Positions 1,470 to 5,511 of a stretch of DNA of 64,000 bases are shown here, piece after piece. The translations under genes were made by a program, and so were the position numbers. Every line of letters begins with the position of its first letter. Within the stretch, counting starts at the first letter, position 1. Below the pieces are notes generated by a model, which was not told the DNA's origin, did not search any database, and saw only the letters and a list, made by a program, of their open reading frames with translations. Source of the stretch: Sulfurimonas xiamenensis (GTDB lineage: Bacteria; Campylobacterota; Campylobacteria; Campylobacterales; Sulfurimonadaceae); assembly GCF_009258045.1 (NCBI RefSeq), contig NZ_CP041166.1:1116001-1180000 (forward strand), written 5' to 3'.

Positions 1470-2252
1470 CTATATCACTTTTAATTTTTTATTTAAACAA
1501 TCACTAAATATGTAATTAACACCGATCTCAAAAAGCTCTTTTGCCAGCTGAGGATTATTTACTGTATAAACACCTACAAAAAAACCGGTTTCTCTTAACA
1601 TTTTAACTTTTGTTTTATCTACTAAGGCATTATCAATATGATAAGCATCTACCTTCAAACTCTTTAGATACTCAAGAAGATTATCAGGATCTCTTCCCTC
1701 AACCAAAGCTGCGCTGGGCACATTTGGCAGCTTTTCTTTAACTATTATTAAATATTCATGCCTAAACGATGAGATCAAAACACGCTCCTGCACTCCTGCC
1801 TCTTCTATCTCTTTTGCAATTGTTTCTATAACTATTCTATCCTCAAAACAGTTAGACATATCTTTAATTTCAATATTTATAAACAGACTATTCTCTTTTA
1901 TAAATTCTAATGCCCTCTTAAGAGTCAAAAGTGGCTCTTTATGATTTTTATATTTGTAAAACCAGCTTCCATAATCCAACATGCAAAGTTCTTCAAACAT
2001 AAAATCGCAAACTCTGTAGGGTTTTTTATCTCTAAAAGAGTCGATTTCGGCTATATTGGTAGTTCTTTGAAGCGTATTATCATGCATAACTATAACTGTC
2101 CTATCTTTGCTTAGCTGAACATCTATCTCTATAAAATCACACTTTCCTATGCTCTTTTTTAACGCCGAAAGAGTGTTTTCGGGTGCGATAGAGCGTGCAC
2201 CTCTGTGAGCGGCGACAAGACCCTTTTTCTTCATTAGTTCTAAAAATTTCAT
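1470..2252 (-). CDS. Glycerophosphodiester phosphodiesterase
   Basis: A GDPD-family TIM barrel of 260 residues that hydrolyses glycerophosphodiesters to glycerol 3-phosphate and an alcohol. The hallmark residues are visible: His16 in HRGAR, ENT at 25-27, EIDVQLS at 42-48 (metal ligands Glu42 and Asp44) and His57 in VMHDNTL. The C-terminal part has the usual GVYTVNN and FSD strands. There is no signal peptide, so a cytoplasmic UgpQ-type enzyme is more likely than periplasmic GlpQ. Gene start lies only about 78 nt from the start of the divergent MFS gene, so the two share a short promoter region. Confidence 0.93.
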   Translation of the reverse strand: MKFLELMKKKGLVAAHRGARSIAPENTLSALKKSIGKCDFIEIDVQLSKDRTVIVMHDNTLQRTTNIAEIDSFRDKKPYRVCDFMFEELCMLDYGSWFYKYKNHKEPLLTLKRALEFIKENSLFINIEIKDMSNCFEDRIVIETIAKEIEEAGVQERVLISSFRHEYLIIVKEKLPNVPSAALVEGRDPDNLLEYLKSLKVDAYHIDNALVDKTKVKMLRETGFFVGVYTVNNPQLAKELFEIGVNYIFSDCLNKKLKVI

Positions 2253-2329: not shown

Positions 2330-3601
2330 ATGCAAGAGAGTAAAAAAACCATCTACTCGTGGGCACTTTACGACTGGGCGAACTCTGCATACGCAACAAC
2401 CGTTATGGCAGGCTTTTTCCCACTCTTTTTCAAATCATACTACAGTGCAGATGTAGCGGTTACCACTAGTACCGCCCATCTTGGGATTGCCAGCTCAATA
2501 TCGAGCCTTGTAATCGTGTTTATCGCTCCGCTCCTGGGCTCTATTGCGGATGTTCACTCTCTTAAAAAAAGATATCTTTTCCTATTTGCTTATCTCGGCA
2601 TATTGATGAGCGCAATGCTCTCTCTTGTTGGAGTAGGAGAGTGGCAGGCGGCACTTTTTATATATATTCTAGGCAATATAGGTTTTATGGGCTCAAACAT
2701 ATTTTATGACGGGCTTTTAAAATCCGTCTCAACCAAAAAAAGTGTCGATTTTGTCTCGGGGCTTGGCTTTTCGCTCGGCTATCTCGGCGGGGGAGTACTC
2801 TTTAGCATAAATGTCTGGATGTTTCAGGATTTTGAATTTTTTGGGTTTGAAAACCAAGCCGCTGCCATAAAAGCATCATTCGTAAGTGTCGCGCTCTGGT
2901 GGGCGTTCTTCTCCATCCCCCTCCTTCTGTTCGTAAAGGAGGACAAAAGCACCAACGCAGCTGCAACGACAAAACTAAAAGATGGATATTTACGACTAAA
3001 AAAAACTTTCTCTAAGATCAGGCAGCTTAGACATCTATCCCTCTTTTTAGTAGCCTACTGGCTCTACATAGACGGCGTAGATACAATTATCAGGATGGCG
3101 GTAGATTACGGAATGGCGCTTGGATTTGACTCTTCAAACCTTATTTTAGCTCTTTTACTTGTTCAGTTTGTCGGATTTCCCGCAACGCTTCTCTTTACTA
3201 AAATATCTGAGATCATGGGCACAAAGGGTGCGATTTATCTTGCCATCGCTATCTATCTATTTATAATTATATGGGCGGCTCAGATGATGGAGGTTTGGGA
3301 ATTTTATATGCTTGCAGTGATGATCGCTCTTGTTCAAGGCGGTATTCAGGCACTTAGCCGCTCATACTACTCAAGGATGATTCCAGAGGGATACTCCGCC
3401 GAGTTTTTCGGTTTTTACAACTTTATAGGCAAATTTGCGGCGATTTTCGGACCTCTTCTTATAGCCATTGTAGCACTTGTATCCCAAAACTCAAGAGTAT
3501 CTATCGCCTCTATCTCTATTTTGTTTATTATAGGCGCAATTCTGCTCTACTTCGTAGATGAGAAAAAAGGAGAAAAAGAGCTCAAAGATGCTCTTCTCTA
3601 G
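2330..3601 (+). CDS. MFS transporter, UMF1/ATG22-like family
   Basis: A membrane protein of 423 residues with about 12 hydrophobic segments. The N-terminal signature WALYDWANSAYATTV is characteristic of the UMF1/Atg22-like branch of the major facilitator superfamily, and the mid-protein RSYYSRMIPEG resembles the second-half MFS loop. The frame stays open upstream to 2195, but the ATG at 2330 is chosen because AGAGG lies before it, the signature begins a few residues later, and the upstream part runs into the divergent gene. Substrate unknown. Its 3' end overlaps the convergent acyltransferase gene by 20 nt. Confidence 0.9.
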   Translation: MQESKKTIYSWALYDWANSAYATTVMAGFFPLFFKSYYSADVAVTTSTAHLGIASSISSLVIVFIAPLLGSIADVHSLKKRYLFLFAYLGILMSAMLSLVGVGEWQAALFIYILGNIGFMGSNIFYDGLLKSVSTKKSVDFVSGLGFSLGYLGGGVLFSINVWMFQDFEFFGFENQAAAIKASFVSVALWWAFFSIPLLLFVKEDKSTNAAATTKLKDGYLRLKKTFSKIRQLRHLSLFLVAYWLYIDGVDTIIRMAVDYGMALGFDSSNLILALLLVQFVGFPATLLFTKISEIMGTKGAIYLAIAIYLFIIIWAAQMMEVWEFYMLAVMIALVQGGIQALSRSYYSRMIPEGYSAEFFGFYNFIGKFAAIFGPLLIAIVALVSQNSRVSIASISILFIIGAILLYFVDEKKGEKELKDALL

Positions 3602-4886
3602 AGCGTTTAAGCTCGCGCTCTATAGCATCTCTAACTCTCTTTACTATCTCGCCATACTCCATAGAGTGCGGCTCTATAGGCTCTAAAAATGTCACCCTTA
3701 TTTTTCTTGGTCTTGGGAAAAGCATTCCTGCTCTAAGTGCTTCAAAACTGCCGTCAATTACAACTGGGATGATGGGTGTCTTAAATGTTTTAGAGAGCAT
3801 AGCAAAGTATGGTCTAAACTCCAAAAGTTCTCTATCTCTTGTTCTAGCCCCCTCAGGAAAAATAACTAGATTATTTCCGCTTCTTATAGGAAGTGCGCAG
3901 TAGATCATCGTCTCTTTAAGGTTTTCGTTTGCATCTATCAAGATGGTCTGTCCATGTTTTGCAATAGGCTTTAAGAGTTTTGTACCAAAGACCTGTTTAT
4001 ATGCCAGAAAAAAGGTTTTTTTTAAAGTTTTGTACGGCAATGCGGACTCTATAAAAAATCCGTCAAGCATACTCTGATGTGAAGGCGCTATTATGCATGC
4101 CTTTGATGAAATATTTTCAATCCCTCTGACTTCAAAACGAAAATATAACCTAAAAAACGGATAAAGAAGAGTCTTATATAGAGACATAATAAAAGGAGAG
4201 TATACTAGTTTTTCACTGCTTTGCTCTCTTAGCAGTTCATCCCATTCTGGTTTGACAACTCCTATCTTTTTTGCATTGACTTTTATGTAACTATAGAGTG
4301 ACTCAAGTTTCATAATTTTTGAGAAAGCAGCTTCATCTATTTTTACTCCAAAACTCTCTTCAATAAAAACAAAAAGCTCTACATAATTAAGCGAATCAAG
4401 TTCAAGGTCAAGTTCGAGATGAGAAGATGGCAAGATCTCTTTTTTAGTCAAAGTTGCTATATATGATTTTAAAATTTTATATACCTCATCACTGGGTTCA
4501 TCTTGAGTTGAAATATTATCGTTTTTATCTGATACAAGAAATTCTTTAAGCACCGTCTTGTCAATCTCGCCTGATTTTGTCTTTACAAGCGGTTTTGTTA
4601 AAATTTTATAGCCCTTTACCTTCTCTTGCTCAAGAGCTTTCATATTGTAAAGCTCAATTGCATACCATTTTATCTCATCTTCTATATTTATAATTTTTGC
4701 TTCTTTTAAAGCATTAAAATCAGGATAAACAAATGCAAAAGGATAACCATTAAATATAATTACTCCAATCTCATCAATAAACGAAGTATAAGATAATATC
4801 TTCTCCTCTATTTTATGTAAATCCATCTTTTCTCTTAATTCTAAATTTTTAAATCTATAGTATCCAAGATGCAAATCTATTGTCAA
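3582..4886 (-). CDS. Composite protein: AMP-ligase C-terminal-like region, acyl carrier domain, PlsC acyltransferase
   Basis: A 434-residue, three-part protein. Residues 1 to about 115 resemble the C-terminal lid of acyl-CoA/AMP-forming ligases (KTKSGEIDKTVLKEFL looks like the conserved lid lysine loop), but no adenylation core precedes it. Residues about 130-210 look like an acyl carrier protein, with the phosphopantetheine serine in LELDSLNYVEL. Residues about 225-434 are a PlsC-type 1-acyl-glycerol-3-phosphate acyltransferase with HQSMLD (the HX4D motif) and FPEGARTR. An ACP-tethered acyl group might be handed to lysophosphatidic acid; this is inference. The full frame begins with TTG at 4886; an ATG at 4826 is an alternative start. 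It is divergent from pgsA, another phospholipid gene. Confidence 0.8.
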   Translation of the reverse strand: MTIDLHLGYYRFKNLELREKMDLHKIEEKILSYTSFIDEIGVIIFNGYPFAFVYPDFNALKEAKIINIEDEIKWYAIELYNMKALEQEKVKGYKILTKPLVKTKSGEIDKTVLKEFLVSDKNDNISTQDEPSDEVYKILKSYIATLTKKEILPSSHLELDLELDSLNYVELFVFIEESFGVKIDEAAFSKIMKLESLYSYIKVNAKKIGVVKPEWDELLREQSSEKLVYSPFIMSLYKTLLYPFFRLYFRFEVRGIENISSKACIIAPSHQSMLDGFFIESALPYKTLKKTFFLAYKQVFGTKLLKPIAKHGQTILIDANENLKETMIYCALPIRSGNNLVIFPEGARTRDRELLEFRPYFAMLSKTFKTPIIPVVIDGSFEALRAGMLFPRPRKIRVTFLEPIEPHSMEYGEIVKRVRDAIERELKRSREEHL

Positions 4887-4959
4887 GCATAATTATAATA
4901 TCAAGCCTAAATTAAGAGCCAAAAAGTTAAAATACACCAATAAATAAATAAGGTAATTT

Positions 4960-5511
4960 TTGTTAAATCTTCCTAATATACTAGCGTTTTCACGCATTTT
5001 TTTAGCACCGTTTATGTTTTGGGTTATTTTGAATCCCGACTATTTTACTGACAATGGTTACCATATAACATGGAACTACTACTTTGCTTCGCTTCTTTTT
5101 GTGCTGGCAAGTGTTACGGACTTTTTTGACGGTTACATCGCAAGAGAGTGGAACCAGATGACAATGCTTGGTGCCATTATTGATCCTCTTGCTGATAAGA
5201 TGCTTATAATTGCCGCATTTTTAGGGCTTATGATGATAGGAGAAGCAAATGCATGGGCTATCTACATTATCATCATCCGCGAGCTTTTTATAACCGGAAT
5301 CCGCACCGTAGCCGTAAGTGAGGGGTTAAGCGTAAAAGCATCATGGGCAGGAAAGGTAAAAACCGTTGTACAGATGATTGCCATCGGATTTTTGCTTATG
5401 CACTGGCCCCTTGGAAGTGAACTTCTCTGGTTGGCAGTCGTGCTCACGCTCTACTCAGGCTTTGAATATCTTTGGGAGTTTAGAAGAGCACTCTTGGGAG
5501 TTAAAAAGTAA
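4960..5511 (+). CDS. pgsA: CDP-diacylglycerol-glycerol-3-phosphate 3-phosphatidyltransferase
   Basis: Makes phosphatidylglycerol phosphate from CDP-diacylglycerol and glycerol 3-phosphate in the inner membrane. At 183 residues it has the usual size and about five membrane segments. The CDP-alcohol phosphotransferase signature is complete: D54..DG58..AR62 then G71, D75 and D79 (SVTDFFDGYIAREW and GAIIDPLADK). The start codon is TTG at 4960, supported by AAGG about 6 nt upstream and by alignment of the MLNLPNILAFSR start with the family. The stop codon overlaps the rseP ATG (TAATG), indicating translational coupling. Confidence 0.95.
   Translation: MLNLPNILAFSRIFLAPFMFWVILNPDYFTDNGYHITWNYYFASLLFVLASVTDFFDGYIAREWNQMTMLGAIIDPLADKMLIIAAFLGLMMIGEANAWAIYIIIIRELFITGIRTVAVSEGLSVKASWAGKVKTVVQMIAIGFLLMHWPLGSELLWLAVVLTLYSGFEYLWEFRRALLGVKK

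Follow-up and report, generated by a model that had tools for sequence, protein, structure and literature searches.

Escherichia coli reacylates lysophospholipids by means of Aas, a 2-acyl-GPE acyltransferase/acyl-ACP synthetase, together with LplT (PMC11416262). A second route is described from Staphylococcus aureus, where the GDPD enzyme LpgD converts lysophosphatidylglycerol to lysophosphatidic acid (LPA), PlsC acylates the LPA with acyl-ACP from type II fatty-acid synthesis (FASII), and a PgsA-dependent step returns the product to phosphatidylglycerol (PG) (PMC10404611). The locus considered here lies in a window of 64,000 nucleotides of Sulfurimonas xiamenensis DNA (the whole stretch that was analysed). 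A preliminary description of this DNA had recognized a protein composed of a ligase lid, an acyl carrier protein (ACP) domain and a PlsC domain, in that order, and had related it to Aas-type ligase-acyltransferases. Both points hold; PP-binding and PF01553 domains are found by Pfam and the lid by homology. In the open-licence literature we found no description of either a core-lid-ACP-PlsC or a lid-ACP-PlsC protein.

The gene and its carrier and acyltransferase domains

The open reading frame at 3582-4886 on the minus strand is real, and encodes 434 aa if read from the TTG at 4886. The start first proposed needs correction. Translation most likely begins at the ATG at 4826 (414 aa), because nearly all homologues begin at that methionine, AAGAG stands immediately before it, and the TTG falls within a -35-like TTGACA. 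Residues are numbered from this ATG unless marked 'of 434'. A short divergent promoter shared with pgsA had also been suggested; the divergent layout stands (Table 1), and the promoter itself comes down to weak consensus matches near the gene (6 found versus 2.5 expected, all on the minus strand). The genome that carries the window is complete (1.92 Mb); those of its near relatives that bear a name are Sulfurimonas MAGs.

Table 1. Features of the locus and its full-length relatives; positions are those of the window.
Feature	Position	Strand	Details
GDPD-family glycerophosphodiester phosphodiesterase	1470..2252	-	downstream same-strand neighbour; PF03009, E 1.9e-40
Atg22-type MFS transporter	2333..3601	+	convergent, 3' ends overlap by ~20 bp; PF11700, E 2.5e-60
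CDS of lid-ACP-PlsC protein	3582..4826	-	414 aa from ATG 4826 (likeliest start), stop codon 3582-3584; basis: homologue starts, AAGAG upstream
PlsC (LPLAT) acyltransferase domain	3756..4139	-	residues 230-357 (250-377 of 434); PF01553, E 1.3e-23
Acyl carrier (PP-binding) domain	4284..4472	-	residues 119-181 (139-201 of 434); PF00550, E 5.9e-5
Ser145 of DSL motif	4392..4394	-	predicted 4'-phosphopantetheine site
A10 motif relic (VKTKSGEIDKT...)	4533..4589	-	residues 80-98; catalytic Lys to Glu; dN/dS 0.50
ANL ligase C-terminal (lid) domain, remnant	4590..4826	-	residues 1-79; E 1.4e-23 to lid of 808-aa fusion; hhalign 99.3%; dN/dS 0.154
Promoter-like TTGACA-18-TACTAT (also TTGACA-16-GATACT)	4857..4886	-	consensus match only
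pgsA (CDP-diacylglycerol--glycerol-3-phosphate 3-phosphatidyltransferase)	4960..5511	+	divergent; TIGR00560, E 9.3e-46, over cut-off
Full-length fusions annotated 'AMP-binding protein'			Ilyobacter WP_013388596.1; Fusobacterium animalis WP_339072680.1; Rubrobacter WP_084264133.1; Campylobacterales G040

The carrier domain scores above the PF00550 cut-off (23.7 versus 20.8 bits), and none of the 40 readable sequences departs from the serine of its DSL motif. AcpS is encoded in the same genome, and helix II of the domain (DSLNYVELFVFIEESF) resembles that of the genome's own AcpP (DSLDVVELVMALEEKF). In the PlsC domain the HX4D (H250-D255) and FPEGAR (323-328) motifs are invariant, so that the HX4D and EGxR signatures of the PlsC-type domain of Aas are both present. 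Three other PF01553 proteins, one of them of PlsC size (233 aa), occur in the genome, and the lid-ACP-PlsC protein is therefore probably not the housekeeping LPA acyltransferase.

Related proteins of other build are also encoded there. A 608-aa MFS-PlsC fusion lacks a ligase (G000 C1 around 889600; L003:208-2034) and has MFS-PlsC-ligase relatives of 1147-1174 aa in a Sulfurimonas genome with the core-less form (G110) and in other families, which makes it a second Aas-type protein in this genome without its ligase. In a 571-aa protein (L004:376-2091), a PlsC-like domain is followed by a long region that is acetyltransferase-like by eye. A second stand-alone ACP (80 aa) is encoded in the pyruvate dehydrogenase operon (G000 C1:1034118-1039090; L120:4119-9091), between the E2 gene and a lipoate-ligase-like/lipoyl-synthase-like pair (gene names by eye), a position that suggests a carrier dedicated to lipoylation.

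Origin and state of the N-terminal lid

Pfam gave no match at E<=1 for residues 1-130 (of 434). With BLASTP, the first 110 residues matched the lid (residues 412-513) of a full-length fusion of 808 aa from another Campylobacterales family (G040; E 1.4e-23). Four domains make up this fusion: an AMP-binding core, AMP-binding_C_3, PP-binding and Acyltransferase. Its C-terminal half is 40% identical to the window protein in the alignment of the two. The lid of the fusion matches AMP-binding_C_3 with an E of 2.5e-5, and one lid from a core-less protein matches the same model directly (E 2.8e-5). Profile-profile comparison (hhalign) of 36 core-less lids with the lids of complete ligases gave 99.3% probability (E 4e-20). 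Homology, rather than Pfam, thus places the lid in the ANL superfamily and indicates that residues 1-110 derive from the lid of an AMP ligase; the preliminary description had allowed that residues 1-120 might prove unrelated to such enzymes.

Against unfused FadD-like or Acs proteins the lid profile was not significant, so the nearest kin of the lid are the full-length fusions only. A profile search of solved structures with the lid alignment returned only chance-like matches (Rai1, E 0.004). AlphaFold models made from a three-sequence alignment, which was too shallow, reached a pLDDT of 37 for the whole protein and 55 for the lid, too poor to judge the lid fold or a lid-ACP contact. A fold search with this lid model found no match below E 0.66; the order of its predicted elements, helix-strand-strand-helix-helix-strand, would be in keeping with an ANL lid.

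Full-length relatives with the order core-lid-ACP-PlsC (808-911 aa) are present in the other Campylobacterales family, in Fusobacteriota and in Rubrobacter. Outside Campylobacterota, the search took in collections of plasmids and viruses as well as genome contigs, the latter scanned with one narrow pattern; the viral contigs yielded no relatives. A plasmid of Ilyobacter polytropus carries two such full-length genes in tandem (L088:2111-7278).

In the alignment, core-less proteins start just past the hinge, at the 'GKNINPxEIE' position of the full-length proteins. Residues A31, P35, F37, I45, W54, Y55, E58, Y60 and N61 are invariant among them, and the conserved W-Y-x-x-E-L-Y-N helix is kept. 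The fate of the A10 motif is different. Its catalytic lysine, found in all four full-length proteins, occurs in none of the 37 core-less ones (it is Glu in the window protein and falls in a gap in 21), and the whole segment is deleted in 22 of the 36 core-less relatives, with ~7 changes between the kept and deleted states on the tree. With the lysine lost and the segment repeatedly deleted, the lid cannot serve adenylation. Erosion of A10 beside these invariant lid residues means that selection dropped the catalytic part and kept the remainder, and this pattern indicates a domain retained in a structural or perhaps a docking role and no longer as part of an active ligase.

Distribution and selection of the core-less form

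The core-less form occurs in 43 of 135 Sulfurimonas genomes, in a sister genus of the same family (G258) and in another family (G354). Its open frames span 366-437 aa and none is longer, leaving out fragments, mostly at contig ends; one frame of 138 aa (G096) falls outside this range. The core-less proteins occupy one side of a branch in a 41-sequence tree, with support of 96/99 (100/99 without the A10 columns), so a single loss of the core suffices. The tree and the alignment together show that the adenylation core was lost once, by one ancestral deletion of exactly the core.

The protein contains no PF00501 domain, and hence not the complete ligase that characterizes Aas, and the upstream region 4827-4960 holds no relic of a core. 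The core noted as missing is indeed missing, and it is not encoded just upstream in the core-less family; only in the full-length relatives is it present, fused in frame.

Pooled pairwise dN/dS values for 15 pairs were 0.154 for the lid, 0.496 for the A10 segment, 0.103 for the ACP, 0.148 for the linker and 0.091 for PlsC (Nei-Gojobori-type estimates with dS of about 0.5-0.8, indicative values since the pairs share sequences). The lid is under purifying selection. As the form is also conserved in many species, the core-less protein is a remodelled enzyme and not a product of local decay. The 'decayed ligase' of the preliminary description is thereby set aside in favour of its other thought, a real stand-alone protein.

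ANL lids are usually regarded as one of the two halves of a ligase. In this case the catalytic core is gone and the lid persists, across one genus and further afield, and the order of events can be read: the core was lost once, the catalytic lysine disappeared, the A10 segment was deleted repeatedly, and the rest of the lid was preserved. Because the lid survives without the core, its part in carrier-protein handling can be tested apart from adenylation.

Gene neighbourhood

At no fewer than 29 of 37 core-less loci there is a GDPD gene downstream of the acyltransferase gene and in the same orientation. It abuts that gene in 12 cases, stands 109 bp away in one, and in 16 is separated from it, as in the window, by a convergent Atg22-type MFS gene. 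An MFS gene of this type occurs at 22 loci or more and a divergent pgsA at 17 or more; all these counts are lower bounds, as flanks of ~1.5 kb were available. Relatedness inflates them, and the locus with the 109-bp spacing (G354) comes from another family. In four Sulfurimonas genomes that keep the MFS gene without the acyltransferase gene, neither GDPD nor pgsA lies beside it, and no GDPD gene was found beside the full-length fusion loci examined. The GDPD of the window belongs to its family by PF03009; its NCBIfam matches are all below cut-off, including that to the lysophosphatidylglycerol phospholipase D model NF053857 (83.1 bits against a cut-off of 450).

Source of the acyl chain

The best reading, to which we give an even chance, is an acyltransferase that recycles lysophospholipids and has a tethered ACP supplied with acyl chains by fatty-acid synthesis. 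The ancestral core-lid-ACP-PlsC fusion would have taken free fatty acids, activated them onto the ACP domain that it carried and handed them to PlsC. After the loss of the core, the lid would most likely have come to dock or position the holo-ACP next to it. AcpS would phosphopantetheinylate the ACP domain, which may then carry an acyl chain from FASII, a source arrived at by exclusion of the other charging routes. The PlsC domain would move this chain to LPA, or directly to a lysophospholipid; in the former case the linked GDPD enzyme could supply LPA from a lysophospholipid. CdsA and PgsA would return the product to PG, completing a putative recycling module with a built-in donor carrier. 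More tentatively, we see here a new, self-carrying acyltransferase architecture, in which a dead ANL lid was exapted to dock or gate a tethered, FASII-charged ACP that feeds lysophospholipid recycling by an operonic GDPD-acyltransferase pair. Such a history suggests that a fatty-acid scavenging enzyme turned into one fed by the cell's own fatty-acid synthesis.

Several points count against the best reading: stand-alone AcpP could donate directly to PlsC while the ACP domain does something else, a separate 233-aa PlsC is present in the genome, which makes a need for this enzyme less evident, some core-less genomes encode FadD-like ligases (34-36% identity), and the NCBIfam scores of the GDPD enzyme fall short of their cut-offs. 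The strongest of the competing explanations is that PlsC uses soluble acyl-AcpP or acyl-CoA in the ordinary way, the lid and the ACP being carried along as structural baggage or serving as an anchor to membrane or partner. PlsC is the most conserved domain, and PlsC enzymes otherwise work without a tethered ACP. We nevertheless consider this explanation unlikely, since the DSL serine is invariant and the dN/dS of the ACP is close to that of PlsC; a carrier site out of use ought to have drifted in the way that the A10 segment has.

The FadD-like ligases bear on a further possibility, the adaptor of the preliminary description, in which acyl-AMP or acyl-ACP comes from a separate ligase that docks on the lid and loads the ACP. 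The lid has stayed adjacent to the ACP, and four genomes with the core-less form (G110, G066, G157 and G067) do encode such ligases. However, FadD-like ligases possess C-terminal lids of their own, as seen in four Sulfurimonas, and the A10 lysine is lost in all core-less proteins. The core of the 808-aa fusion was searched at a threshold of E 1e-5 against 14 other genomes, 13 of them with the core-less form; 7 of these 13, including one complete genome (G065), gave no match. Nor does the complete genome of the window hold an ancestor-like core. Its three PF00501 proteins are Acs, an Acs-like protein whose gene adjoins those of pyruvate dehydrogenase, and a PaaK-like protein, each with its own C-terminal domain. 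The search for a stand-alone adenylation partner thus speaks against loading in trans, which we hold to be quite improbable.

Slimmer still is the prospect of a regulatory variant, in which PlsC is gated by a holo- or acyl-ACP that acts as a sensor of acyl supply, the lid being the hinge and the ACP not a donor. ANL lids swing, and lid and ACP are co-conserved; given the full-length relatives, a donor role is simpler. That the gene is a ligase in decay, expressed only for its PlsC half, is very improbable: erosion is seen in the A10 segment (dN/dS 0.5, ~7 kept/deleted changes), but lid residues 1-79 are under purifying selection across the genus, W54, Y55, E58, Y60 and N61 are invariant, and the core-less form reaches another family.

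Comparison with known systems

GDPD, acyltransferase and pgsA together make up a candidate recycling pathway that is absent from the papers found in the open-licence literature. The GDPD, lid-ACP-PlsC and pgsA genes of the window would fit an LpgD-type cycle. As in S. aureus, a GDPD, an LPA-type acyltransferase and PgsA would be involved, their genes being neighbours in the window; PlsC of S. aureus takes soluble FASII acyl-ACP, whereas the acyltransferase of the window bears its own ACP (PMC10404611).

Aas likewise couples a PlsC-type domain to acyl-ACP chemistry. Its PlsC domain comes first, followed by a complete ligase that uses soluble ACP, whereas the window protein has an ACP of its own and has lost the ligase core; scores against the Aas equivalogs PRK08043, PRK08633 and PRK06814 are 34-63 bits, below cut-offs of 886-1349. 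LplT, the partner of Aas, moves lysophospholipids; at the core-less loci an Atg22-type MFS transporter is a recurrent neighbour of the acyltransferase. With PlsC/1-acylglycerol-3-phosphate acyltransferase the protein shares PF01553 with the HX4D and EGAR motifs, and differs in its additional N-terminal lid and ACP; it scores 59.9 bits against TIGR00530 (cut-off 103).

The closest likeness is to the full-length fusions, which have the same domain order, are collinear with the window protein over lid, ACP and PlsC at 25-40% identity, and differ in retaining the adenylation core, the hinge motif and the A10 lysine.
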